DNA from: Bacteroidota bacterium
GTDB taxonomy: Bacteria; Bacteroidota; Bacteroidia; B-17B0; Aurantibacillaceae
Length of the DNA stretch: 35,594 bases
Reading direction: 5' to 3'
Assembly: GCA_025963735.1 (NCBI GenBank)
Contig: JAOQAF010000068.1
Span: 1 to 35,594, forward strand
The notes beneath the pieces were generated by a model, which saw only the letters and a list, made by a program, of their open reading frames with translations, was not told the DNA's origin and searched no databases. A program made the position numbers and the translations under genes. Below are positions 12,518 through 33,013 of the stretch, one piece after another; the first letter of the stretch is position 1, and every line of letters starts with the position of its first letter.

Positions 12518-13654
12518 TTAATTTCTTGAGGGAATATTATCAGAGATCTTTGAGGCTCCGTAAGGAAAATTATCAAGTGTTCCAACACTAAAAAACAAAA
12601 TCACGATATTGGTATTGCTTAATTCTTTTTTCATATCCAAATTTACAACATCCTGATCAGGCCTTCCATCGTGGGCAAATGCCTGCCTGAAATAATATAA
12701 AAAATAACTTTCCTTTGAAAAAACCCGCGAAGGGATCCAGGTATTATTTAAACCATAATAAAAGCTATCTCCTATCAACAGCACTTTTGGTTTATAACAA
12801 CTATCATTATTACGCACATATTCTATTGTAGGATAGGCTAACTTTCCACTGTTTAAATTCTGGAATAAATTAAACGCCTTGCTTATATCATCATCAGAGC
12901 CCCGTGCGGTATCACTTAATTCAACCGATTTTATTTTAATTAAATTTACATTCTTCGAAGTTTCAAAAGCAATACGTTTTAATAAAGTATCCAATGCAAT
13001 GTAAGCCCCATAGGTTGTCCAGTGAACAGCACCTTGTATAAAAAGCGGATATGAGGAGTTGGCTTTTAATTTTTGAAAATAATTCTGATAGTCCAGTAAT
13101 GGGATATTATTCTTTACTAATTTTTCTTTGTAAACAGAATAATATGTGCGCGCTTTAACTTTTGAAAGAAAAGTATCCGGCAAAAACTCGGGATAAAAAC
13201 TTTCCTTACATGGTGCAAAACACACCAATAATTTTATTTTTTGATCTTTCAACTTTTTATTCAACACCCTAAGGCTTTGTATAACTGAATCAGCATGGCT
13301 ATCGTTATAATGCTGTCCGGAATAACTGTTATAAAATTTATAACTATACAAATAATTTTTTTTACCGCGAAAAACATCATTTACGTGCATCTCTTGAAAC
13401 AAACTGTAGGACACCTGATTATTAAGTTTTACAAAATAGTTTCTTAATCCGAAATTTTCATTAAGATATTTCTCTTTGTGGATTTGATACGATTTATCCA
13501 GCCATGAGGCAAGTGTTAAGGTAGTATCATCGCTTTTAGAGAAAGATCCAAACAGTAATGGTTCGCGCACCACCTTAAACTGTTTTTGGATCAGAGGAGC
13601 CAGCATTACAAACAAAATTATTGCCAGTACTGTTATTTTATTTATTCTTTTCAT
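12518..13654 (-). CDS. AlgJ/AlgX-like SGNH hydrolase, partner of MBOAT-1
   Basis: The 378-residue protein has an N-terminal signal anchor (residues ~5-22), the family-typical KYLNENFGLRNYFVKLNN segment, an HWTTYGAY motif (His211) and GDSF with Ser297 as presumed nucleophile. This is the SGNH-fold periplasmic enzyme that transfers acyl groups delivered by an MBOAT protein to a polysaccharide, as in alginate acetylation. Its ATG overlaps the MBOAT-1 stop (TAATG), so the two are translationally coupled. The acceptor polymer is not known. Confidence 0.85.
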   Translation of the reverse strand: MKRINKITVLAIILFVMLAPLIQKQFKVVREPLLFGSFSKSDDTTLTLASWLDKSYQIHKEKYLNENFGLRNYFVKLNNQVSYSLFQEMHVNDVFRGKKNYLYSYKFYNSYSGQHYNDSHADSVIQSLRVLNKKLKDQKIKLLVCFAPCKESFYPEFLPDTFLSKVKARTYYSVYKEKLVKNNIPLLDYQNYFQKLKANSSYPLFIQGAVHWTTYGAYIALDTLLKRIAFETSKNVNLIKIKSVELSDTARGSDDDISKAFNLFQNLNSGKLAYPTIEYVRNNDSCYKPKVLLIGDSFYYGLNNTWIPSRVFSKESYFLYYFRQAFAHDGRPDQDVVNLDMKKELSNTNIVILFFSVGTLDNFPYGASKISDNIPSRN

Positions 13655-15084
13655 TAAAATCTGAAATAAATAAAAGGGTTAAAGTCATTTGAAGTAACTG
13701 AACTCACCGAGAGCACAAATAAAACCAGAACACAGGTCGCTACTAAATAATGTGCAACACTTGTTTTATTTTCGCGGTTATAAAAGTAATTCTGAATCTG
13801 CTGTCCATAAGGAAGAATTACAAAGAATGAAAACAAAACAGAAAGAGCGAAAAAGAATCTTATTTTGAAATCAAGTGCAGATAATATTCCGCCACCGCAT
13901 GAAAAAGAAAACATTTTTTTCACGAATATAAAAGCGAAGGAAAGTGAGTCGGACCTAAAAAACACCCAACCAACAACAACAATTAAAAACGTTAACAGTA
14001 CAGCAAAATTACCTAGTTTTTTTAAATATGCTCCTAAAAACACACGTTCAATCACCAGCCAAAAACCATAATAAACGCCCCAGAAAACGAAAGTCCAGGC
14101 CGCGCCATGCCAAAACCCACTTAGAATAAAAACCAACCACAAATTAAAATATAACCGGTGAACCGAATTTACTTTATTACCTCCTAATGGAATATATAAA
14201 TAATTTTTCATCCAGTTACCTAAAGTAATATGCCACCTTCGCCAAAACTCTGTTACACTTTTAGAAGTATATGGATTATTAAAATTTTCGGGGAAACGAA
14301 AACCAAACATTTTACCAAGTCCGATAGCCATATCAGAATATCCTGAAAAATCAAAATAAATCTGAAAGGTATAAGCAAGTGCGCCGATCCAACAATCTGC
14401 AACACTTAATTCACTAATGGAAGAACTAAAAACTTTGTCTGCCATCAGTGCCATGGTATTGGCAATAAATACTTTTTTTGCCAAACCCAAGCCAAACCGA
14501 TAAAAGCCGCTCAATATCAAATCCGGATTGTAAGATGAGAATCTTCCGGTTATCTGATCTGAGATCTCACTGAAACGGATAATAGGTCCCGCGATTAATT
14601 TTGGAAACAATAAAATGTAGAGCTGGTATTGTAAAAAATTGGAGAGGGGTTTATGTTCCTTTCGGTAAACATCAACAACATAGGTTACACTTTCAAAAGT
14701 ATAAAATGAAATACCAATTGGTAAAATAACGTTTAACCAAGCTAATTGTCCGGCACCGGTTGCACTCAACACCTGATTGATGTTTGCCACAAAAAAATTG
14801 CAATACTTAAAATAAAAAAGTAAACCCAAATTAAGGCTCAAAGATACTATCAATAATAATTTTCGTGTTGACACAGTTTGGGCTGCAGCCATTAATTTAA
14901 CTAAATAAAAATCGAGGGTAGTTGTTATAAGAATTACAAAAATAAAACGCGGCGCACCCCAACTGTAAAAGAATACACTTGCCATGAGAAGAAAGACATT
15001 CTTGAATGCATTGGGCAAAATAAAATATACCACCAAAACAAGAGGTAAAAAATACACCAGAAAAATACTGCTGCTAAAAATCAT
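13654..15084 (-). CDS. MBOAT O-acyltransferase (AlgI-like), copy 1
   Basis: This is a membrane-bound O-acyltransferase of 476 residues with about eleven spans. The family signatures are PKLIAGPIIR (161-170), FDFSGYSDMAIG (244-255), WRRWHITLGNW (281-291, His285) and the catalytic WHGAAWTF (His326). It moves acyl groups across the inner membrane for transfer by the SGNH partner encoded immediately downstream. It starts 2 bases after the GNAT gene stop. It differs clearly in sequence from copy 2 (20931-22337), so this is not a recent tandem duplication. Confidence 0.93.
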   Translation of the reverse strand: MIFSSSIFLVYFLPLVLVVYFILPNAFKNVFLLMASVFFYSWGAPRFIFVILITTTLDFYLVKLMAAAQTVSTRKLLLIVSLSLNLGLLFYFKYCNFFVANINQVLSATGAGQLAWLNVILPIGISFYTFESVTYVVDVYRKEHKPLSNFLQYQLYILLFPKLIAGPIIRFSEISDQITGRFSSYNPDLILSGFYRFGLGLAKKVFIANTMALMADKVFSSSISELSVADCWIGALAYTFQIYFDFSGYSDMAIGLGKMFGFRFPENFNNPYTSKSVTEFWRRWHITLGNWMKNYLYIPLGGNKVNSVHRLYFNLWLVFILSGFWHGAAWTFVFWGVYYGFWLVIERVFLGAYLKKLGNFAVLLTFLIVVVGWVFFRSDSLSFAFIFVKKMFSFSCGGGILSALDFKIRFFFALSVLFSFFVILPYGQQIQNYFYNRENKTSVAHYLVATCVLVLFVLSVSSVTSNDFNPFIYFRF

Positions 15085-16737: not shown

Positions 16738-17089
16738 CTTTCTTCTGTAATTCAGCTTTTAGCAAGGCATGCTCCTGTGCAAGATCTTTCATTTGTTTTT
16801 GCAGCTTTGAATTTATAACCGACAAATGAACAAGAAAAATAATAATAGCGAAAATAGCACCCAAAAAAACCAGTGCCGGTGCATAATACACGCCTAATAG
16901 TTTCGCTACTATATCTAATCCGTTTCTCCAGAAAGCAAATACCATTAAAAATAAAGTACATACAATCCATACAATGGAATATTCCTCTCTTAATTTGCCT
17001 TTAACAATCAATCGAAAAATAAATAACATAAAAAGCAATGATCCTACAATGCTTAAGAGTTGTATTTTATAAGGCACTACGTTTTCCAT
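16730..17089 (-). CDS. DUF2304 small membrane protein
   Basis: The 119-residue protein has three hydrophobic spans and a C-terminal coiled-coil segment (about 88-119, QKQMKDLAQEHALLKAELQK). The YSIVWIVCTLFLMVFAF region is typical of DUF2304, which is regularly encoded next to dolichol-phosphate-mannose-synthase-like GT2 enzymes, as here. It probably anchors or assists the glycosyltransferase. It overlaps the GT2 gene by 23 bases. Confidence 0.85.
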   Translation of the reverse strand: MENVVPYKIQLLSIVGSLLFMLFIFRLIVKGKLREEYSIVWIVCTLFLMVFAFWRNGLDIVAKLLGVYYAPALVFLGAIFAIIIFLVHLSVINSKLQKQMKDLAQEHALLKAELQKKDA

Positions 17090-17813
17090 TTCCTTTTAAT
17101 CTTATATAAATAAATAATATTCCCAACGTTACTTTAATCATATAATATATGCTGGAAAAGGATCCAATAGATGATTGACCACTTTCCCGATCCTTCATAA
17201 CTACAGGGATCTCTTTTATTTTTAAAGCGTTCAATGTATAAATAACAATTGCTTCGGGTTCGGGATAAGTATCCGGATAATAATCGCACACCAACCTTAT
17301 AGTTTTTTTATCAAGTGCCCTGAAGCCGGATGTACTATCGGTTACAGTAACGCCAAGCATAAATTTTATAAGGTATTTAAAATAATTGATGCCAAACCTT
17401 CTTAAAGCTGAAGATTGAAAACCCTGCTTGTCAAGAAATCTAGAGCCTATAACTACATTTGATTCATTATTTAAAATGGGTTCAATTAATCTGGCGATAT
17501 AATCGGCAGGATGTTGTCCATCACCGTCAAACTGAACTGCAATGTCAAAATTATTTTTTAGCGCGTATTTGTAACCTGCCTGTACGGCCCCGCCTATCCC
17601 TAAATTAATGGGAAGGTTAATATAAACGCTGGTTAACTTTTTTATTTCCAAGAGCGTATTATCCTTAGATGAATCATTAACAGGAAGTGCTCTTATATTA
17701 ACCCCGGGAATAGAAACAGACCTCAGCGAAGCAAGCACTTTTGCAATATTCCCTTCCTCATTGTAGCAAGGAATGATTATCAGCACATTTTTACTGGTTC
17801 CTGTCTGCTCCAT
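17067..17813 (-). CDS. Family 2 glycosyltransferase (DPM1/GtrB-like)
   Basis: The 248-residue protein has the GT-A fold signature PCYNEE (15-20), VNDSSKD (45-51) and the metal-binding QFDGDGQHP (DxD-like, Asp96/Asp98). The family makes polyprenyl-phosphate sugars from nucleotide sugars on the cytoplasmic side of the membrane. There is at most one C-terminal hydrophobic segment, so membrane association may come from the DUF2304 partner. It overlaps both neighbours by 23 bases, implying tight translational coupling. The GT-C-like protein upstream is a plausible user of the lipid-linked sugar. Confidence 0.92.
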   Translation of the reverse strand: MEQTGTSKNVLIIIPCYNEEGNIAKVLASLRSVSIPGVNIRALPVNDSSKDNTLLEIKKLTSVYINLPINLGIGGAVQAGYKYALKNNFDIAVQFDGDGQHPADYIARLIEPILNNESNVVIGSRFLDKQGFQSSALRRFGINYFKYLIKFMLGVTVTDSTSGFRALDKKTIRLVCDYYPDTYPEPEAIVIYTLNALKIKEIPVVMKDRESGQSSIGSFSSIYYMIKVTLGILFIYIRLKGNGKRSAL

Positions 17814-19212
17814 TTTTCAATTTTGTATAATCAGGTTCCTTTAACGATTTCCAGTAATTTCCTTCAGGTGCGCCACTCAATGAATATTTTCCAAATACAA
17901 GCCAGTAAGATTCTTTTGTCATAGAATTAAAATGGATATAGCCACGTGAGTACTGGTAACTTTGACCAATGTTTAAACAAATGCCCGAAAAAACAAAAAT
18001 TAAAAATATAAATTTAAGTGGGTGAAACCATGTGGCTACTCTGTCGCTGTCAAGAAAATAAGTGCTAACAGCTGCAATTGGCATTGCAAGAAAGGCAATG
18101 TGCTGGCAAAAACCTCTTGCGCCAAAACATCCGCCAAAAAACCAGTCCCACCAACAACTTAAAATATAAAGATTAAGCAAGAGCACGAATGTTATACCAA
18201 TCTTTAGCTTTGACGCTTCTCCTTTTAAAAAAAACAAACCTATAAAGGACAAAATAATCAATGGCGTATACGTAATCCAGCCTTTCCGGTAACTAAAAAG
18301 AACGTTTAATACTTGCGGATCGTTCCAATAAAATTTTTCGCCGTTGGTTGCATACGAAGAATAAAAATACGACCCGGTATGATTTTTCCAGAAAATAAAT
18401 TGAGGAATCCAGATTAAAATAAAAATAACAAGCATGATAACCAGATGCGACCAGTTAGTCAGAAATTTAGAAACCTGAACTTTTAAAGAATTTAAATCAG
18501 TTACCCCCCATAAAACAAAAATTAATCCCACTAAAATTTCTGTAGGTCTGATCAAAGAAATTAAACTAATAAGAACACCTACAACCACAGAGCGGCCAAT
18601 AGTAACGTTATTGTGCCATTTATAACAGGCGAGTAAAAAAGCACTTATGAGAAAAAATAAATATCCATGCGTCATTTCACTATCACCATAGGTATAATAA
18701 AAAAGCATGGTTCCGAAAAAAACAATTGCCAGAGTAAATGCCGTAGTTCTTTCGGAGTAAAATTTAATTAAAAAATTACGCAGCAATATTAATCCAAGAA
18801 GAGAATAAAAAATGCTTCCCCAATGAAGGCAGGTTGAAAAAGGCTCACTGAATCCATCGAGCGGACTTTTTTGATTAAGCGCTATTTTGTACCCTAAAGC
18901 AAAAAAGGGGGAATACATTATGGCCATGCCGTAAGTTGCTCTCGTAACTATTTCGCCATTTGGCAATACCTGCAAAAAATCGGAAACCCCATTTGAAAAC
19001 TTAAAAGAATCATTATTACAAAACTTGGCGGGAAGATAACTGTAATAGTTAGCAACATCCCATTGAAAATTATTTTGGGTAAAATGCCATTTTCTCCAAA
19101 GGTCCATTGTGAAGAAAGAAAAACAAAAACAGAATATAATAAGCATGACCGAAGGTTTTGATAAGCCTGAGAAATCAGGAATAAGCCTGCTTAAATATTT
19201 TACTTTATTCAT
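17791..19212 (-). CDS. Multi-span GT-C-like membrane protein
   Basis: The 473-residue protein has about eleven spans and a first periplasmic loop (NNFQWDVANYYSYLPAKF, roughly residues 47-64) that contains acidic residues, as in GT-C glycosyltransferases of the ArnT/PMT type. Placement directly before a DPM1-like GT2 and DUF2304 supports a role in using polyprenyl-phosphate sugar. No named family is claimed. The start is 16 bases after scoB. Confidence 0.72.
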   Translation of the reverse strand: MNKVKYLSRLIPDFSGLSKPSVMLIIFCFCFSFFTMDLWRKWHFTQNNFQWDVANYYSYLPAKFCNNDSFKFSNGVSDFLQVLPNGEIVTRATYGMAIMYSPFFALGYKIALNQKSPLDGFSEPFSTCLHWGSIFYSLLGLILLRNFLIKFYSERTTAFTLAIVFFGTMLFYYTYGDSEMTHGYLFFLISAFLLACYKWHNNVTIGRSVVVGVLISLISLIRPTEILVGLIFVLWGVTDLNSLKVQVSKFLTNWSHLVIMLVIFILIWIPQFIFWKNHTGSYFYSSYATNGEKFYWNDPQVLNVLFSYRKGWITYTPLIILSFIGLFFLKGEASKLKIGITFVLLLNLYILSCWWDWFFGGCFGARGFCQHIAFLAMPIAAVSTYFLDSDRVATWFHPLKFIFLIFVFSGICLNIGQSYQYSRGYIHFNSMTKESYWLVFGKYSLSGAPEGNYWKSLKEPDYTKLKNGADRNQ

Positions 19213-19228: not shown

Positions 19229-19885
19229 CTAAATAACCATTTCTTTAACTTCACCTTCTATTATTAATTTTCCGGCAGTGGCATTTTTAATTTCATCAAC
19301 CGAAATGCCCGGAGCACGCTCCAGTAAACGAAACCCGCCCTGAGGCAGCACATCATAAACTCCCAGCTCGGTAACTATTTTTTTAACGCACCTTACACCT
19401 GTTAAGGGTAGTTCGCATTTTGCAAGCAGTTTTGATTGGCCCGCTTTATTAACCTGTTGCATGGCAACAATAATGTTCTTTGCGCTTGCCACAAGATCCA
19501 TGGCGCCTCCCATGCCCTTCACCATTTTTCCCGGAATCTTCCAGTTGGCAATGTCGCCATCTTCACTTACTTCCATTGCACCTAAAATAGTAAGGTTAAC
19601 TTTTTGAGACCGGATCATACCAAAACTCATGGCGCTGTCAAAAATACTGGAGCCTTTTAACAATGTTATGGTTTGTTTTCCGGCATTGATGAGATCTGCA
19701 TCCTCTTCTCCTTCAAAAGGAAAAGGTCCCATGCCTAAAATTCCATTTTCTGATTGTAAAACAACATCAAACCCTTCAGGAATATAATTTGCAACAAGAG
19801 TTGGTATTCCAATCCCCAGGTTAACGAACATTCCGTTTTGTACTTCCTTTGCAATACGTTTTGCAATACCATTTTTATCAAGCAT
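19229..19885 (-). CDS. scoB: 3-oxoacid CoA-transferase subunit B
   Basis: The 218-residue protein has the catalytic segment VVLQSENGILGMG (Glu46 forms the CoA thioester), followed by the AMEVSEDGDIANWKIPGK signature of succinyl-CoA:acetoacetate (or butyrate-acetoacetate) CoA-transferase beta chains. Its partner scoA is not adjacent: an MBOAT/SGNH pair (19888-22337) lies between the two. The ATG is 2 bases after the SGNH gene stop, so translation is likely coupled to that gene. Confidence 0.95.
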   Translation of the reverse strand: MLDKNGIAKRIAKEVQNGMFVNLGIGIPTLVANYIPEGFDVVLQSENGILGMGPFPFEGEEDADLINAGKQTITLLKGSSIFDSAMSFGMIRSQKVNLTILGAMEVSEDGDIANWKIPGKMVKGMGGAMDLVASAKNIIVAMQQVNKAGQSKLLAKCELPLTGVRCVKKIVTELGVYDVLPQGGFRLLERAPGISVDEIKNATAGKLIIEGEVKEMVI

Positions 19886-19887
19886 GA

Positions 19888-20931
19888 TTAAAAAGCGGTT
19901 TTATATTTATTATTAAATTGTGTACTTAATGCTTTAGCCAGGTTCCGGGCAATTATCATCCTGCCTTTATAACTGTAGTGTTCTGTTGTCCAGCTCTGAT
20001 CTGTAAATTCTTTTCCTTTAACTAATTCCAGGTTATCCACCACTCTGCAGTTATTTCTATTATATCTTTTTACCAGATAATCTCTGTTTTGTTTCATTAA
20101 AAATACTAATTCTTTACCAACCAGACTGTCGGCATACTCCATGTTTTCAGCCAAAAGGTTAAGGTATAAATTTACATTATTTTTGTGGCACCAGCCAGCT
20201 ATAAAATCGAAATCTTTAATACGCGGATTTTCATCTTCAATATTAAACGCGTATGTTTTAACGTAATGGCAGGCGAGTGTTATTTTCTCTGTATCCCAGC
20301 TGCCATCGGGCTTGATATATGTACCCTGAGCCATTTCATAATCCCATTCGCGAACAGTTTTATGCGCTGATTTAAAAGGAAATTTCAGGCGGGTTGTTTC
20401 CCATTCCTTTATCATATCCTGATCGCGCTGCTGTTCGGTTTTATTATCGAAGGCATTTAACGAAAGTAAAAACCTGTTTATAATGTTGGGGTATGGCTTT
20501 AATAAAACAACCGATTCCTGCAAAGGTGTTTCCAGTTTTGAATTGATCCAGGTGGCATCAAATGAGCGCAGGTTAAGCGTAACAACTATTGCTTTAGGTT
20601 TATGTTCCTTTACATTAACCTGGGTAATCCAGTGCTTATAAATTCCGGCGTGAGTTGCCGCTTTATTGATAGCGGTAATTTTTAAAGAAGGAAAAAACAA
20701 GTTAGTAATCTCTGAAATACTGTTTTGTATTGAGTCTGATGGTTGCGTAGAAAAATTAGAAGACTCCGCAAAATAAAAAATATCGGTATTGTTCTGTTCT
20801 TTTTTTATTTCCTGAACCTCTTCGCATTTTTCATTTAAATCTTTTTTATACAATGTAAAATTATAAATGAGGTTAAGTATCGCGATTACAACCACGATGC
20901 CAAAAATTCTTATTATTATTTTTTTAATCAT
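19888..20931 (-). CDS. SGNH-like envelope protein, partner of MBOAT-2
   Basis: Starting at the ATG that overlaps the MBOAT-2 stop (TAATG at 20931) gives 347 residues beginning MIKKIIIRIFGIVVV, a signal anchor. The frame is also open upstream to 21015, but that is MBOAT-2 coding sequence. Possible catalytic features are FAESSN (Ser57/58, where SGNH proteins have GDS or GSS) and WTTEHYSYKGR (Glu317-His318, like the C-terminal D/E-x-x-H block). It resembles DltD/AlgX-type partners only in layout, with no strong sequence match recognised. Position after an MBOAT supports the role. Confidence 0.75.
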   Translation of the reverse strand: MIKKIIIRIFGIVVVIAILNLIYNFTLYKKDLNEKCEEVQEIKKEQNNTDIFYFAESSNFSTQPSDSIQNSISEITNLFFPSLKITAINKAATHAGIYKHWITQVNVKEHKPKAIVVTLNLRSFDATWINSKLETPLQESVVLLKPYPNIINRFLLSLNAFDNKTEQQRDQDMIKEWETTRLKFPFKSAHKTVREWDYEMAQGTYIKPDGSWDTEKITLACHYVKTYAFNIEDENPRIKDFDFIAGWCHKNNVNLYLNLLAENMEYADSLVGKELVFLMKQNRDYLVKRYNRNNCRVVDNLELVKGKEFTDQSWTTEHYSYKGRMIIARNLAKALSTQFNNKYKTAF

Positions 20932-22337
20932 TAAAACTGAAAATAAATAAAAGTAAATTTCTGAGTACCGGCCATAGCCATCAGGCAAAATATAAATAAA
21001 GCATACATGGCCCACCGTGCCGGGGCTTTAACGGCACCCAGGCGTTTATCAAACCTGGAGTTATAAACCAGTATATCAATTATTATTATCACGCAACTAA
21101 ATATTACCGCATAGTTAATTTGTTCTGGCATGGCCGGAACATGCCAATTTCTAACCATCGCTTTGATTATATTTTTCGCTTTGTCAAACGTTTCGGCCCT
21201 GAAAAATATCCAGATAAAGGAAGTAACAATAAATGTTTTAAGAGTTAACATGATATTTAAAATGTTCCATTCTTTTGTAATATTTATTCCAAATACTTTA
21301 GAGGTAAAACGTTCGAGCAAAATCATTAATCCGTGTAAAGCCCCCCACACCACAAAGGTCCAGCTTGCCCCATGCCATAACCCGCTTATCATAAAAACAA
21401 TAAGAATATTAATGCACCAGCGCGGCAATTTAACTCTGTTACCACCCAGGGGAATGTAGAGGTAATCTCTGAACCAGCTGCTTAATGAAATATGCCAGCG
21501 TGTCCAGAATTCAGTTATGCTTTTAGATAAATAGGGAGTATTAAAATTATCCATGATCTTAATTCCCAATAAGCGTGCACTGCCAAGAGCAATGGTAGAG
21601 TACCCGAAAAAATCGGCATAAATTTGAAAAGAAAATAAAACAACCGCTAGAATCACTTCACCCGAATTATATTTTAACGGATCGGTGTATACAAGGTTAA
21701 CATACGGAGCAATGTTATCAGCTACAACCATTTTTACAAACAGGCCAAATAAAATCATTCTGAAACCATTTGAAAAATTTTCATATTTAGGTTTATGATC
21801 CTGTTTTAATTCGTTGCCTAAAGTATCGTACCGTTCAATGGGACCGGCTACCATTTGAGGGAAGAATAAAACATAATTGGCAAAATAACCAAGATGCCGT
21901 TCGGCTTTTTGCCTGCCCCTGTACACTTCAATAGTGTAGCTCATGGATTGAAAGGTGTGGAACGATAAGCCAATGGGAAGGATGATGTTAAGGTTAACCG
22001 GATCAAATTCTCTGCCAAACAAATTAAAAACAGTAACGAGGTTATCATTAAAAAAATTAAAGTATTTAAAAAAAGCAAGCAGGGCAATGTTAGCCGTAAG
22101 GCTGCCTATAAGATAAAACAACCGAAGCTTACCGTTTAATTTTTCAATGGTTAGGGCCGAAACATAATCAATTAAAATAATAAGAAAAAGAATGAGAATA
22201 TATTTGGGTACAAATACCATATAAAAATAGCAGCTGGCTATAAAAATAAGTATCCATCTGAACCTGAAGGGAAGGAGATAATATAAACCAACTACAATTG
22301 GTAGAAAAATAAGGAAGTGTAGTGAGTTAAATAACAC
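20931..22337 (-). CDS. MBOAT O-acyltransferase (AlgI-like), copy 2
   Basis: The 468-residue membrane O-acyltransferase has the signatures PQMVAGPIERY (160-170), FSFQIYADFFGYSTIALG (235-252), TRWHISLSSWFRDYLYIPLG (279-298, His282) and WHGASWTF (catalytic His322). It lies between scoA (15-base gap) and its SGNH-like partner (TAATG overlap). Compared with copy 1 it keeps the motifs but differs in most other positions, so the two pairs probably modify different polymers or positions (inference). Confidence 0.93.
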   Translation of the reverse strand: MLFNSLHFLIFLPIVVGLYYLLPFRFRWILIFIASCYFYMVFVPKYILILFLIILIDYVSALTIEKLNGKLRLFYLIGSLTANIALLAFFKYFNFFNDNLVTVFNLFGREFDPVNLNIILPIGLSFHTFQSMSYTIEVYRGRQKAERHLGYFANYVLFFPQMVAGPIERYDTLGNELKQDHKPKYENFSNGFRMILFGLFVKMVVADNIAPYVNLVYTDPLKYNSGEVILAVVLFSFQIYADFFGYSTIALGSARLLGIKIMDNFNTPYLSKSITEFWTRWHISLSSWFRDYLYIPLGGNRVKLPRWCINILIVFMISGLWHGASWTFVVWGALHGLMILLERFTSKVFGINITKEWNILNIMLTLKTFIVTSFIWIFFRAETFDKAKNIIKAMVRNWHVPAMPEQINYAVIFSCVIIIIDILVYNSRFDKRLGAVKAPARWAMYALFIFCLMAMAGTQKFTFIYFQF

Positions 22338-22352
22338 GTGATCTTGTAAAAG

Positions 22353-23063
22353 TTATTTTTTTCTTACTGTAATTTGTTCAATGCGTTTTTCATACTTTTC
22401 GCCCTGAAAAATGCGGTGGACATATATTCCCGGCGTGTGAATGTGGTCAGGATCCAATTCACCGGCAGGAACCAGCTGTTCTACCTCAGCAATGGTAATT
22501 TTTCCGGCCATTGCCATCATGGGATTAAAATTGCGGGCGGTACTTTTATAAATAAGGTTTCCGGCAGTATCGCCCTTCCAGGCTTTTACTATCGCAAAGT
22601 CCGATTCAAAAGCAGCTTCCATCAAATAATCTTTTTCTTCGCCGTTAAATTTAAATTTACGCACTTCTTTGCCTATAGCAACTTCGGTACCCACTCCTGC
22701 TGGAGTATAAATAGCCGGCATGCCATATCCGGCGGCCATGCATCGGGTTGCCAGCGTACCCTGCGGCACAAGCTCAACTTCCAGTTCACCGCTTAACATC
22801 TGACGTTCAAATTCGGCGTTTTCTCCCACATAGCTCGATATCATTTTTTTTATCTGTTTTGTTTGAAGGAGTAAACCAAGACCGAAATCATCGACGCCCG
22901 CATTGTTACTTATACAGGTAAGATTTTTCACTCCCATTTTTACCAGCTGGGCAATGCAGTTTTCCGGAATGCCGCATAAGCCAAATCCGCCTACCATTAA
23001 AATCATTCCGTCTTTAATATCTTTTGTTGCTTCTTCAACATTTTTTACAACTCTGCTAATCAT
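22353..23063 (-). CDS. scoA: 3-oxoacid CoA-transferase subunit A
   Basis: The 236-residue protein has the CoA-transferase alpha-chain signature ([13 protein letters not shown], 25-37) and the [11 protein letters not shown] segment. With scoB it forms the enzyme that moves CoA between succinyl-CoA (or acetyl-CoA) and acetoacetate or a related acid. Normally scoA and scoB are adjacent, whereas here 2.5 kb carrying two acyltransferase genes separates them on the same strand. It starts 10 bases after the upstream membrane-protein gene. Confidence 0.95.
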
Positions 23064-23073
23064 ATTGTGTAAT

Positions 23074-24627
23074 TTATTTTTGCGTTAATTTAGGGAAGTA
23101 TTCTCCTTTAGGGTAATAAAATTTTTCTACAATAAGAAACTCATATTGTTCGGTTTTGATAGTATCTTTTATGACGAATTTTTTTTTCATGGCTTCGGGT
23201 AAAAAAGAATCACTGATCACAAAATCAAAATCTCCTTCGTGAAACCAATTTATATTGGCACCGCTTTCACAAATATTACCCCCGGGAAATGCTGAAAGAA
23301 CCTGAATATGATTATGCGATAATAAACTTGCACGCTTGGCGGTCCAGTATTCGGCAATTCCACGCTTAAGATTATGTTTTACACACACACTATCAATCAA
23401 TTTTACATCGGCGGGATAATAACTGAAAAAATTGGTTAAGCCCGCTGAACTGAATTTAACAGCAAAAAGAAAACCAAAAAGTATCAATAAAACCGGCGCA
23501 ATAAAACGAGTGAACGTGAAAACTTTATATTTTTCGAGTACAAAAGCAAAAGCTATGGTAAAAATAATTCCTGACAAATAAAAGGGATGCACGTTATATC
23601 GCAGGGTATCCCATCCTGTATAATTGCCATTAAGAATTGGTGCCGGAAAAACGCTAAGACAGAATACAACAAAATATACCAGCATAAAAAGCAGCGGGTA
23701 AGGCATTTTACCCGCCTTTCGAATACATATAATCAAAAGTACAATCATTGATAAAACAGTAAAAATAATTGTAAAGCTTCTGAATCCGGGAGTTGTAATA
23801 TATATTGCCATTTGATCGATAAACATGTCAAACGAGGGCTTAATGTTTTCAAAAGCGTATATTTTATGAGGATCTGCAAAATTAAACACCTTGCTTTCTT
23901 TAACAACTTTAAAAAGGAGGATGGCCCCAACACTGCCTGTAATAACACTTGAAATAAACATTAAATGAGACTTTAATCTTTCCCGCTTTGCAGTTAACAG
24001 CATGGTTATTATAAAAGGGAAACAAAACATGACGAAAAATAAAATGTCGCTAAAACCAAAAATGAAGGAAAGAATAAACATCCATATATATTTGAATATA
24101 TTCTTAAGCGGACCAAGATATACAGCTAATAGTATCAAAGTATTTACAAAGGCCCCGGAATGATAAGAAGGCTGCGTGAGAAAAAAAGCGAACAGAAAAT
24201 CGTGACTGAAGTAAAAGCTCTCTAAATAAAACATGGAAAAAAACACCGGAATAAGCCATACATACTTTTTTAAAGGTGGTTGAACTACCTTAATAAAAAT
24301 ATAAGACATTAGCAGGCATATAACCATTACCTGAACTAAACTGTAAATAAAACTTGTTGTAAAAACAGTAGACTTGAAAATAAAAATAATTAAAAAGTAA
24401 AGTGTAAAATCAGGAAATAGCGCAGGTGCCGCGGCAAAACTCCATCCTTTAATATCACCATGATTTACAAAAATATCTTTATAAACATAGTAAGGACCAA
24501 GTGAATCTGAATAAAAAACCAGATAAAATTTTGAATCTTCAAACAAGGAATAACCGGACACTATGCAACCCAGCAACACTAAGTACGCTACCACAATAAG
24601 TTTGTTTTCCTTTAAAAATTTCAGCAT
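23074..24627 (-). CDS. Large multi-span membrane protein, unknown
   Basis: The 517-residue protein has about eleven hydrophobic spans and a soluble C-terminal domain of ~110 residues (about 407-517). An early periplasmic loop ([12 protein letters not shown], near residues 42-53) and the general shape suggest a GT-C-like glycosyltransferase or a dolichyl-phosphate-sugar mannosyltransferase relative, but I see no decisive motif. It is the second gene of the run, 36 bases after PBP1a and 10 before scoA. Confidence 0.72.
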
Positions 24628-24663: not shown

Positions 24664-26916
24664 TTATTCAAACTCGTTAAACTCAATACTTCCATCATTA
24701 TCCTTTGAGTCGTATTTGCTGCAATCAAGCTCTAAATTAGGGTCAAGGTTTTTTGGTCGTGGAAAATCACCTTTACTTACCTTTAAAAGTTTATCGGCAT
24801 ATACCTTACTGAAAAATTTACCCCATATTGGCAGAGCCATTGTAGCCCCCTGACCCTCTACCATGGAGTTAAAATGCACACTACGGTCTTCGCCTCCAAC
24901 CCAGGCGCCCGCTACAAGTTCGGGGGTTAAGCCCATAAACCATCCATCGGCGTTTTTTTGAGTGGTTCCGGTTTTACCTGCAATCTGATTCATTAATTTA
25001 TGTCGCGAACGTAATCGTGAACCTGTTCCTCCATCCACTACGCCACGCATTAGCTGAATCATTACATAGGCTTTTTCTTCACTGAATACCTCATCTGTTG
25101 CAGGAATAAACTCTTCAAGCACCTTACCGTTTTTATCTTCAATGCGGGTTATAAATGTTGGTTGAATGTAAGTTCCTTTATTTGCAAACGTTGAGTTGGC
25201 AGCTACCATTTCAAACACGTTGATATCCGCTGTTCCTAAACATATTGAAGGAACTTCAGGTATTTCGGAAGTAATGCCCAACCGTTTTACCAGGTTAACA
25301 ACGGCATGCGGACCGTATTGTTTCATCACCCACGCAGTTATATAATTAATAGAATTGGCAAGCGCTTTTTTAAGCGTTATCATTTTCCCGTTGTTTTTAT
25401 CGTTTGGTCCATCAGAGTTTTCGGGACACCAGTCTGTTCCATCAGGCAAGGCAATGCAGGTCTTTACATTGGGCACCTGGTGACAAGGCGAGTATCCTTC
25501 CTGTATAGCAAGCGCGTACACAAAAGGTTTAAAGGTAGAACCCACCTGCCGCTTGCTAACTTTAACGTGATCATATTTAAAATGCTTATGATTGATACCA
25601 CCTACCCATGCCTTTACATATCCGGTTTGTGGTTCCATGGCCATGAAGCCTGTTTGCAAAAATCCTTTGTAATATTTAATGCTGTCGAAGGGAGTCATCA
25701 GTGTATCAACATCGCCGCGCAAGCTGTAAACGGTCATTTGCACCGGTTTGTAAAAAGTAGCTACAATTTTATCATGACTAAGTCCTTGTTTTTTCCCTGA
25801 ACGGTATCGGTCGCTGCGCTTTATGGAAGAGTTCATTATGTTTTCAATCTCTTCCTTGTTTACGTTCCATGCAAAAGGCGCGTTCTTTTTTTGCTTCAGA
25901 TCCTTATTAAACATGCGCTGCAGTTCCTGCATGTGCTCATTTACTGATTCCTCGGCGTGTTTCTGCATCCGCGAATCAATGGTGGTAAAAATTTTTAAAC
26001 CATCTTTATAAATATTGTAGGGTTTTTCGGTATCAGGATTAATATGTTTTTCGCACCAGGCTTTTAAAACATTATCACGTAAGTATTCCCTGAAATAAGG
26101 AGCAAGTCCGTCGTTATGATTTTCGGGATGAAAACTTAAGGCCAATGGCAGCGCTTTTAAACTATCGTATTTTTGTTTGGTAAGGTAGCCGTACTTTACC
26201 ATTTGGAACATCACTACATTCCGCCGGTGCATAGTGGTATCATGATGCCTGATGGGATTAAATAGTGCGGGGTTTTTAGCCATGCCTATTAACATGGCTG
26301 CCTGTTCAATTTTTAAACTATCCTGCCCCCGGTTAAAATAAATTTGTGAAGCCGATTTAACTCCTACCGCTAAATTCAAAAAATCAAATTTATTGAGATA
26401 CAGGCTCATGATCTCGTCTTTGGTATAAAGCTTCTCAAGGCGGGTGGCTATGATCCACTCTTTCATTTTACGAACAATCAAACCCGGCTTGCTCAATTTT
26501 TCGTCGCGCGGAAACATCATTTTAGCCAGTTGCTGGGTAATGGTGCTTCCACCGCCCTTACTTCCACCGGTAAGCGCACCCGAAAGAGATCTTCCCAGCG
26601 CTTTTATATCCACCCCGCTGTGTTCATAGAATCGCGCGTCCTCCGTTGCTATCAAAGCATTCACCAGATCTTTATCGAGCTGACTGAAACTAACATTCAC
26701 GCGGTTTTCGCTGTAATACTTGCCAAGGATCTTCATATCGCCACTGTACACAACAGTTGCCAGGTTGTTTTTGGGATTAAGAAGTTCATCCACTTTAGGC
26801 AGGGAGCCAAAAGTACCCATGCTGATAAACAGAATGAGCAGAAAAATAAGGATCACAGGACTTAAAAATAAGATCCATAACCATTTAATGAATTTAGCTG
26901 GGGGCTTCTTGGCCAT
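24664..26916 (-). CDS. mrcA: Penicillin-binding protein 1A (bifunctional class A PBP)
   Basis: This inner-membrane peptidoglycan synthase has 750 residues. It has one N-terminal membrane anchor (about 12-33), a GT51 glycosyltransferase domain with catalytic Glu92 in TEDARFYEHSG and GGGSTITQQLAK (121-132), and a transpeptidase domain with S460-TF-K463, S522-I-N524 and K648-TGT. The C-terminus ends in an acidic segment with an EF-hand-like loop (SKDNDGSIEFNE), which is unusual for the family. It is the first gene of the minus-strand run that continues into the polysaccharide locus. Confidence 0.95.
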   Translation of the reverse strand: MAKKPPAKFIKWLWILFLSPVILIFLLILFISMGTFGSLPKVDELLNPKNNLATVVYSGDMKILGKYYSENRVNVSFSQLDKDLVNALIATEDARFYEHSGVDIKALGRSLSGALTGGSKGGGSTITQQLAKMMFPRDEKLSKPGLIVRKMKEWIIATRLEKLYTKDEIMSLYLNKFDFLNLAVGVKSASQIYFNRGQDSLKIEQAAMLIGMAKNPALFNPIRHHDTTMHRRNVVMFQMVKYGYLTKQKYDSLKALPLALSFHPENHNDGLAPYFREYLRDNVLKAWCEKHINPDTEKPYNIYKDGLKIFTTIDSRMQKHAEESVNEHMQELQRMFNKDLKQKKNAPFAWNVNKEEIENIMNSSIKRSDRYRSGKKQGLSHDKIVATFYKPVQMTVYSLRGDVDTLMTPFDSIKYYKGFLQTGFMAMEPQTGYVKAWVGGINHKHFKYDHVKVSKRQVGSTFKPFVYALAIQEGYSPCHQVPNVKTCIALPDGTDWCPENSDGPNDKNNGKMITLKKALANSINYITAWVMKQYGPHAVVNLVKRLGITSEIPEVPSICLGTADINVFEMVAANSTFANKGTYIQPTFITRIEDKNGKVLEEFIPATDEVFSEEKAYVMIQLMRGVVDGGTGSRLRSRHKLMNQIAGKTGTTQKNADGWFMGLTPELVAGAWVGGEDRSVHFNSMVEGQGATMALPIWGKFFSKVYADKLLKVSKGDFPRPKNLDPNLELDCSKYDSKDNDGSIEFNEFE

Positions 26917-31167: not shown

Positions 31168-32124
31168 CTAATTAATTTCTTTCAGTTCCCATACTTTAAT
31201 TGTTTTATCCTGTGAGCAGGAATAAAGGGTTTTGCCATCAGTACTGAATTTAACGTCAATAACAGCCGCATCGTGTGCTTTAATACGTTTTACTTCTTTC
31301 TTTGTTGCAAGATCCCATATAATAATGTTCTTATCAACCGCGCCGGAGGCAAGATATTTACCGTCTTTTGATAAATCAAGGCAAACAACTCCTTCGGTAT
31401 GACCTTTTAATGTAGCAATATTTTTACCTGTATTTACTTCCCACATTTTTATTGTATTATCAAAGCTTGCCGAAAATAAAAACTTTTCGTCCATAGATAA
31501 ACATACATCATACACCCAATCGTTGTGACCGGCGTAGGATCTTACCATTTCCCCGGTAGTAAAGTCCCACATTTTTACAAGGTTATCATGTCCTCCGGAA
31601 AAAATAAGGGTTGTGTTTTTGTTGAAAATAGCATTGTCCACCCAGGTCACTTCTTTTGTTTCAACCTGTTCTTTTAAACTCCCTGCCTTCCATACAACCA
31701 GCGTTTTATCTCTCCAGCTCGACGTTAAAATATATTTATCATCGCTTGAATAGAGGCAGGTTTCTACGAAAGCCGTATGAGTATTTTTTCTTGAGAACTT
31801 AGGTTTAAATGTTTTAAAATCTATTTCGGCAAACCGTGTATACAGAGCCGCAAGAAATTTTGAACCATCATGATTGAAATTAATCCGCTTTACAGAAGAA
31901 CCTTCCATATTAATGGTTTTTTTTAAGGAAAAGTTAGCAAGGTCCCATATCCGTATGGTTTCGTCTTTCCCGCCTGAAATAAGAGTGAGGCCGTCAGGCG
32001 AAACATCAATGCTGTTAACGGCACCCGCATGACCGCTTAAAATAGCTTTTGCAGTTGAATCCTGAGAAAACGATAGTTTAATTAACGAAATAAAAATAAG
32101 TGTTATTAAGAGTTTAAAGCGCAT
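31168..32124 (-). CDS. Secreted seven-bladed WD40 repeat protein
   Basis: From the ATG at 32124 the protein is 318 residues: a signal peptide (MRFKLLITLIFISLIKLSFS, then QDS), then seven WD40 blades closing with IWDL, FAEIDF (degenerate), VWKA, MWDF, MWEV, IWDL and VWEL. This makes one complete beta-propeller and nothing else, so it is an extracytoplasmic binding scaffold. An ATG at 32133 would add three residues (MIT) before the signal peptide and is less likely. It overlaps the upstream TPR gene by 11 bases and is the last gene of its unit. Confidence 0.88.
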   Translation of the reverse strand: MRFKLLITLIFISLIKLSFSQDSTAKAILSGHAGAVNSIDVSPDGLTLISGGKDETIRIWDLANFSLKKTINMEGSSVKRINFNHDGSKFLAALYTRFAEIDFKTFKPKFSRKNTHTAFVETCLYSSDDKYILTSSWRDKTLVVWKAGSLKEQVETKEVTWVDNAIFNKNTTLIFSGGHDNLVKMWDFTTGEMVRSYAGHNDWVYDVCLSMDEKFLFSASFDNTIKMWEVNTGKNIATLKGHTEGVVCLDLSKDGKYLASGAVDKNIIIWDLATKKEVKRIKAHDAAVIDVKFSTDGKTLYSCSQDKTIKVWELKEIN

Positions 32125-33013
32125 TGTAATCATTTAGTTTTTTAATAAAAGCAGATTTAAAGTTATCATTAAATTTCCGGGTTTTTTCATAATTCCTTTT
32201 CGGAATAACTTCGTTAAGCTGATTAACTCCACCCGTATAAAAAGACCGCATCATAAACAAGCCTGCAGACGCGGCAGTTATATAATTGGTTACATAAATA
32301 TTGGCGGCGGTATAACCAACCGCTAACAGCTGAAAACCAATATTTGCAAATGCTTTACCCGGTTTACCCGCATAAAATAAACCAGCTCCCGGTAAACATT
32401 TCGATAATCGTCTTGCCTTTTTTAAAGATTTTAATTTAGGAATATTATCTTTTGAGTAGTAACGGTTAACGAAATTGGATAAAGAGTCGCGTGCATTGAC
32501 CTGAACATTTGCGCCAACACAATAATCCTGAAGCTTTAATCTGGCCTGCGAATAATTGTTTAATTCGTTTAATACCAATGCATGTAATAAGACAGCGTTT
32601 TTGTACTCTTTAGAATTTATTGGAATAGACGCCGCTTTAGCGCAGTATTTTTCTGCATCATTAAAATAAGAGGACAGGTAAAGGTTGAGAGCCAATTCGT
32701 AATACGAAACACATCTAATTGAATCGTTTAATTCAAAATTTTCAATTCTTACAAGGCTCCGGTATGCTTCGTAATTAAGTCCCAGTTTTTTAAAACAGTT
32801 TGCTCTGTTAAGTAGTGCCTGAATTTTTTTATCAATATTTTTAGTGAAAAAAAACACCCGTTCATATGCTGTTGCCGCTTCTTCATATTGTCCCAACGCA
32901 AAAACACTATCCGCTTCAAAAGCAGACCGGCTCTGGGCTTTAGTTGAAGAATTTACTAACAGGCAGCTTAAGGCCAACCAATATATTGTGTTTATTTTCA
33001 AATTGTTTTTCAA
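32114..33013 (-). CDS. Exported TPR protein with C-terminal PGxG membrane domain, copy 2
   Basis: The 299-residue protein has a signal peptide (about 1-26, ending STKA-QS), TPR-like helical repeats (about 30-165, including ALGQYEEAATAYERVFFF), and then a C-terminal region with LPGAGLFYAGKPGKAFANIG (about 206-225), hydrophobic segments and a YTGGVNQLNEVIPKRNYEKT tail. The same order is found in the gene just upstream. Its start overlaps that gene's end by 74 bases, which is long; the signal peptide requires this start. Confidence 0.8.
   Translation of the reverse strand: MKNNLKINTIYWLALSCLLVNSSTKAQSRSAFEADSVFALGQYEEAATAYERVFFFTKNIDKKIQALLNRANCFKKLGLNYEAYRSLVRIENFELNDSIRCVSYYELALNLYLSSYFNDAEKYCAKAASIPINSKEYKNAVLLHALVLNELNNYSQARLKLQDYCVGANVQVNARDSLSNFVNRYYSKDNIPKLKSLKKARRLSKCLPGAGLFYAGKPGKAFANIGFQLLAVGYTAANIYVTNYITAASAGLFMMRSFYTGGVNQLNEVIPKRNYEKTRKFNDNFKSAFIKKLNDYNAL

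Follow-up and report, generated by a model that had tools for sequence, protein, structure and literature searches.

The scoA-scoB junction in a genus of Bacteroidota as a likely insertion slot for an MBOAT-SGNH acyltransferase pair

Variable surface-glycan loci flanked by conserved genes are known, the cps and O-antigen loci among them. The locus described here, in which an MBOAT acyltransferase gene and a gene for a putative SGNH-fold partner separate scoA from scoB, the genes for the two subunits of 3-oxoacid CoA-transferase, lies on contig JAOQAF010000068.1 of a Bacteroidota draft genome (269 contigs). The whole stretch analysed, 35,594 nucleotides, is called the window, and coordinates are positions in it. 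Adjoining MBOAT and SGNH genes also occur in PatAB-type pairs (peptidoglycan O-acetylation) and in alginate AlgI with AlgX/AlgJ; DltB-DltD (teichoic acid D-alanylation) is a further system to compare. According to the excerpt of PMC12148441 available to us, the tyrosine of the C-terminal motif of PatA is auto-acetylated from acetyl-CoA and hands this group on to its SGNH partner. In the same excerpt, DltB lacks this motif and uses a separate protein, DltX. The four genes of the window are, in order of transcription:

22353..23063, minus strand: scoA, 3-oxoacid CoA-transferase subunit A, 236 amino acids (aa) (TIGR02429, 254.1 bits; PDB 3rrl_A, E 6e-91)
20931..22337, minus strand: putative MBOAT acyltransferase, 468 aa, GTG start (PF03062, 99.9 bits; H322, motif FIYFQF)
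19888..20931, minus strand: predicted SGNH-fold partner, 347 aa, S58 and H318 invariant (AlphaFold2 model, Foldseek, invariant columns)
19229..19885, minus strand: scoB, 3-oxoacid CoA-transferase subunit B, 218 aa (TIGR02428, 309.8 bits; PDB 3cdk_B, E 2.4e-73)

The gaps between them were 15, -1 and 2 bases: the ATG of the SGNH gene at 20931 overlapped the MBOAT stop by one base (TAATG), and the ATG of scoB stood at 19885, exactly as an earlier note on this DNA had described, to the base. We consider it likely that the scoA-scoB junction, beside a gene for a PBP1a-like penicillin-binding protein, is a permissive insertion slot which in this genus usually holds an MBOAT-SGNH cassette read with the operon, and that the pair acylates a surface glycan.

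Matches to PF01144, the CoA-transferase family, were sought in 60 genomes (37 from the genus of the window), and an SGNH profile was run on 40 genomes of the genus and matched in 34. The count covers the 32 of these 40 in which both sco genes were called on a single fetched stretch; G002, G010, G011, G020, G023, G031, G060 and G062 were left out (contig ends, separate contigs, missing gene calls). Between scoA and scoB, 26 of the 32 carried the MBOAT-SGNH pair, 5 had nothing (adjacent subunits) and one, G014, held a 467-aa protein without Pfam match. The search of related genomes that the earlier note had proposed thus gave the opposite of an order confined to this genome, with scoAB intact in its relatives. 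The six genomes without SGNH were the five with adjacent scoAB and G014; one genome, G032, is only 60% complete. In 12 of the 26 filled slots, one to four further genes lay between scoA and MBOAT, including c7 (PMT_2, 30.4 bits), c6 (PMT_2, 25.5 bits, just below the cut-off of 26.1), c14 (DUF2079) and c19 (no Pfam match). In 32 of 39 genomes, the gene immediately upstream of scoB was that for SGNH. In G002 the pair was on a short contig, away from scoB, and a second, distant MBOAT-SGNH pair was present elsewhere in G003, G007 and G026. In the sister genus of the same family (2 genomes), scoAB were adjacent in G173 and separated by one 183-aa gene in G197. Median identities were 89% for both scoA and scoB, 66% for MBOAT and 59% for SGNH (378 genome pairs before removing short overlaps); with the cargo types given below, these values are those of diverse cargo between conserved flanks.

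The class was surveyed in 72 genomes of at least 95% completeness, genes being called adjacent when the gap between their domains was no more than 400 bp. A CoA-transferase match was found in 61 genomes and both subunits in 59, of which 31 had scoA and scoB adjacent, 21 interrupted on one contig and 7 on different contigs. The control pair, etfBA, was always on one contig, and in 69 of 70 genomes its genes were no more than 400 bp apart (662 bp in the other). Interruption or unlinking was thus far more frequent for scoAB (28/59) than a distance above 400 bp for etfBA (1/70; Fisher p 6.5e-11, or 1.5e-8 after dropping the different-contig scoAB cases). The statement of the earlier note that the subunits are normally adjacent applied to no more than 31 of the 59 genomes sampled. 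An earlier, broader listing, not used for rates, included both subunits in at least 134 of 197 genomes; among those listed, 69 had them within 350 bp, 44 farther apart on one contig and 21 on different contigs. In G111, G159, G225 and G153 (L201-L208), scoA and scoB were inside the interiors of different contigs and look truly unlinked. Outside the genus, 28 of 30 loci holding both genes (a set partly picked for split scoAB) had PBP1a and scoA no more than 400 bp apart; inside it the figure was only 19 of 34, and both junctions are therefore invaded in the genus.

The cargo of the slot varied outside the genus. In families f4, f5, f9, f10, f20, f31, f37 and f45 it consisted of proteins of 565-690 aa; the model of one of them, aligned with 14 others (pLDDT 81.4), matched GT-C enzymes (Emb arabinosyltransferases, ALG12, ArnT) with TM-scores of 0.3-0.5, and two GT-C-type subfamilies were present. 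A 505-aa protein with no Pfam match filled the slot in f29 (G106), and a 393-aa protein without match did so in G167. A four-helix 23S rRNA-intervening-sequence protein (23S-IVP) was found in the slot in several families (G050 and G138 by Pfam; G051, G056, G084 and G217 by cluster; loci L084 and L200 by Pfam, L085, L089, L217 and L218 by cluster). Other cargo comprised PIN (G121), PDDEXK_3 (G096, G231), a methyltransferase (G230), fn3 (G212), PF00144 (G094) and, in G078 (L197), a thiolase, which would fit ketone-body metabolism. Slot genes on the opposite strand were a 616-aa gene in G039 and G149 and a 597-aa gene in G057. In the GT-C tree, the rows G039, G149 and G159 were labelled “OUT” although the genes concerned either sit in the slot, on the strand opposite to the sco genes, or follow scoA directly, and the 6 changes of that tree are therefore unusable as a count of entries. 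The common factor is the slot, not the MBOAT-SGNH pair: interruptions are common across the class and the cargo is varied, and the sco genes are therefore read as bookends of a variable slot, rich in envelope-glycan genes. In this sense the data support, and widen, the alternative of the earlier note that an insertion had been tolerated: most genomes of the genus have this arrangement, and across the class the junction often takes up genes.

The flanks were compared with the pair in a tree of PBP1a, scoA and scoB (39 of 42 rows; G020, G023 and G062 were dropped for too few columns) and a tree of MBOAT-SGNH (54 rows, including 17 of a set of 80 pair loci). On the flank tree, empty genomes were sister to filled ones (G027 to G028, G036 to G015, and G008 plus G032 to G033), and at least 5 presence changes of the pair were needed, with or without G002, in a count blind to gain versus loss. 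The MBOAT-SGNH tree placed G003 and G016 with G015, G033 and L123; the PBP1a and scoA of G003 and G016 were 91-94% identical to those of the window. Flanks and pair each rejected the other's grouping in the approximately unbiased (AU) test (p 1.5e-68 and 2.6e-8), and in this lineage the history of the pair differs from that of its flanks. The scoB of G003 leaned to G033 and G015 in amino-acid identity (92 and 91, vs. 88 for the window); that of G016 did not clearly do so. Loci named Cryomorphaceae, Crocinitomicaceae, Chryseobacterium and Flavobacteriales (L112, L114-L118) fell inside the genus set on the pair tree, beside the long branch G025, a placement that suggests transfer; there the pair was near a c6-type gene, away from sco genes. 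A sco gene was beside or near the pair in 29 of the 80 pair loci (many from the same genomes as the genus set), and none was among the neighbours listed in the other 51, several of whose contigs were short. In L123 one gene separated SGNH from scoB; in L121 only scoA was visible.

The MBOAT set used for the tree and motif count (n=53) comprised 33 proteins from the genus, 3 distant second copies and 17 from outside loci. All 53 had WHG, with the catalytic histidine, and the C-terminal FXYXXF; H322 and Y465 did not vary among the 27 genus rows, and the window MBOAT ends in FIYFQF, which contains Tyr465. The closest solved structure was DltB (E 1.4e-27), but the window protein scored 158.3 bits against the DltB equivalog model TIGR04091, far below the cut-off of 375, and it carries the C-terminal shuttle motif. 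The 347-aa partner had no match in Pfam and NCBIfam searches apart from one chance-level match at E 0.28, and against PDB sequences gave nothing, or chance-level matches only. Its AlphaFold2 model was confident (pLDDT 92.6, pTM 0.89). DltD was the top Foldseek match in the PDB (E 2.7e-5, with TM-scores of only about 0.4), and VIA-align scored DltD (rmsd 3.5 over 225 residues) and a GDSL esterase equally, at Z 14.4 each; the label “DltD-like” would therefore rest on the Foldseek order. S58 and H318 were invariant in 30 of 30 rows and may be the catalytic residues; the position three before H318 is not Asp, and Glu317 adjoins H318. By the confident model, the structural matches and the two invariant residues, the partner is therefore modelled as an SGNH fold. 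Judged from sequence and model, the pair appears to be a functional acyl-transfer machine and probably decorates the cell surface with acyl groups; both the acyl group and the acceptor polymer are what we infer for it.

ScoA and ScoB passed their NCBIfam cut-offs (254.1 vs. 128.5 for TIGR02429 and 309.8 vs. 243.55 for TIGR02428) and were the only two PF01144 matches found in the source genome. The solved structures they matched are presumably from Bacillus (3cdk) and Helicobacter (3rrl). As part of the slot reading, they are likely to be an ordinary CoA-transferase whose genes serve as bookends. A scoA match in another genome (G012:C37, 12167-12808, in L043) holds one in-frame TGA.

How the slot would work can be put as follows. 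In the genus it mostly holds MBOAT-SGNH, and genes of membrane glycosyltransferase type often separate scoA from MBOAT; the cargo would be transcribed with the sco operon in one transcript. The MBOAT would take an acyl group, probably acetyl from acetyl-CoA, onto Tyr465, from which it would pass to the serine of the SGNH partner and then to a surface glycan. Cassettes may be exchanged by homologous recombination in the conserved flanks; the cassette would have become usual in the genus, be missing from some members and have been swapped in place in one lineage. A mobile element as carrier was rejected: no transposase or integrase family was found among the 23 of 39 window open reading frames (at least 120 aa) that were run in Pfam, the repeats flanking the cassette were short and imperfect, and the G+C content per kb across 19-23 kb (34-39%) fell inside the 33-42% range of 10-28 kb. 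Promoter and terminator scans were uninformative, with counts near the shuffled means (41 vs. 36.4 and 7 vs. 9.4, respectively).

Several points weigh against this reading. The gap between SGNH and scoB was 1-3 bases in 25 of 32 genomes, tighter than a neutral slot requires (three others were called -4 from an early TTG, or 2 from the ATG, and the rest were 4, 6, 6 and 13); so tight a junction suggests translational coupling of SGNH and scoB and is the main feature for which a purely neutral view has no account. The tree that served as a proxy for the species was made from the flanks of the locus itself. Half-gene identities of scoA and scoB in G003 and G016 had no clear switch at which to locate a recombination breakpoint, and some of the scoAB pairs on different contigs may owe their separation to breaks in the assembly. 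How often the slot was entered independently is uncertain. A bolder and more tentative proposal, to which we give about one chance in four, takes the scoA-scoB junction beside PBP1a as a class-wide docking site for envelope-glycan genes in Bacteroidota; cargo inside the two-subunit enzyme would be retained because, with SGNH and scoB translationally coupled, its removal must leave both subunits expressed.

An assembly or binning artefact would be conceivable in a draft of 269 contigs, but is ruled out for practical purposes: the order recurs in 26 of 32 genomes, including G001 (1 contig) and G030 (2 contigs), and is therefore neither chance nor assembly error. A single insertion in an ancestor of the genus, then inherited vertically with several losses and no exchange, is improbable, though it would agree with five presence changes counted as one gain and four losses, with the lack of the pair in the slot of both sister-genus genomes and with the correlation of sco and cargo identities (Spearman 0.53 and 0.59). 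The conflicting histories of pair and flanks in G003 and G016 argue against it, as do the loci of other named groups that nest in the genus set, albeit beside the long branch G025. More doubtful still is a functional link, proposed in the earlier note, by which ScoAB is kept with the pair as the enzyme that sets the acyl-CoA pool for acylation of a surface polymer. The usual position of SGNH directly upstream of scoB, mostly at 1-3 bases, the thiolase of G078, which indicates that metabolically related cargo does occur, and the C-terminal motif, which in the excerpt on PatA is the one used with acyl-CoA (PMC12148441), would speak for it. However, scoAB occurs without the pair in 6 of 32 genus genomes, the pair occurs without adjoining sco genes in G002 and in 51 of 80 loci, unrelated cargo fills the slot in other families, and PatA, in the same excerpt, uses acetyl-CoA with no need of a CoA-transferase. 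A metabolic link between ScoAB and acylation is thus not supported by these data; it is possible but unneeded, and the slot reading is preferred.

The neighbouring genes of the window, upstream and downstream of the four, are on the same strand:

24664..26916, minus strand: PBP1a-like penicillin-binding protein, conserved upstream neighbour (PF00912, 176.1 bits; PF00905, 85.2 bits)
23074..24627, minus strand: 517-aa protein of cluster c15 between PBP1a and scoA, a membrane protein by eye, without Pfam match at E 0.001
17791..19212, minus strand: 473-aa glycosyltransferase-like protein of cluster c8, downstream of scoB (NF047440, 29 bits, far below the cut-off of 200)
17067..17813, minus strand: GT2 glycosyltransferase (PF00535, 82.7 bits)
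13654-15084, minus strand: second MBOAT (PF03062, 104.8 bits)
12518-13654, minus strand: AlgX-type SGNH partner of the second MBOAT (PF16822, 46.8 bits)

Farther downstream on this strand are also a small gene (DUF2304 in the tested member of its cluster), a gene for a polysaccharide deacetylase and a GNAT gene. A WD40-repeat protein at 31168-32133 (PF00400, 190 bits) has no relation to the sco locus.

With these results, a guess about metabolism gives way to a claim about genome architecture that can be tested, namely that a variable locus can have the two subunits of a single enzyme as its bookends. Annotators of Bacteroidota genomes should expect scoA and scoB apart and may take the two genes as signposts to GT-C and MBOAT-SGNH envelope genes that are still uncharacterised. 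If the docking proposal were true, a housekeeping enzyme would be a trap keeping swappable surface cassettes expressed. A literature search (titles, open-licence articles) found no MBOAT/SGNH pair between scoA and scoB and no split scoAB in Bacteroidota, which is weak evidence of absence. Nor did those titles include bookends made of the two subunits of one enzyme, with a measured excess of interruption over a control pair.

Compared with known systems, the window subunits are full length and match solved succinyl-CoA:3-ketoacid CoA-transferases strongly, but their genes are parted by two others. The MBOAT-SGNH pair shares with PatAB-type and AlgI pairs the adjoining genes, the WHG histidine, the C-terminal FXYXXF and the predicted SGNH fold; unlike them, it sits between CoA-transferase subunits, and its 347-aa partner has no AlgX Pfam match. 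It resembles DltB-DltD in the nearest solved structure of the MBOAT and in the Foldseek match of the SGNH model, but differs in its score under the DltB cut-off and in its C-terminal motif, absent from DltB as far as the excerpt describes it. With cps and O-antigen-type loci it has in common conserved flanks, variable envelope cargo and, in one lineage, exchange in place; it differs in that its flanks are two subunits of one enzyme and that some of its cargo is unrelated to the envelope.

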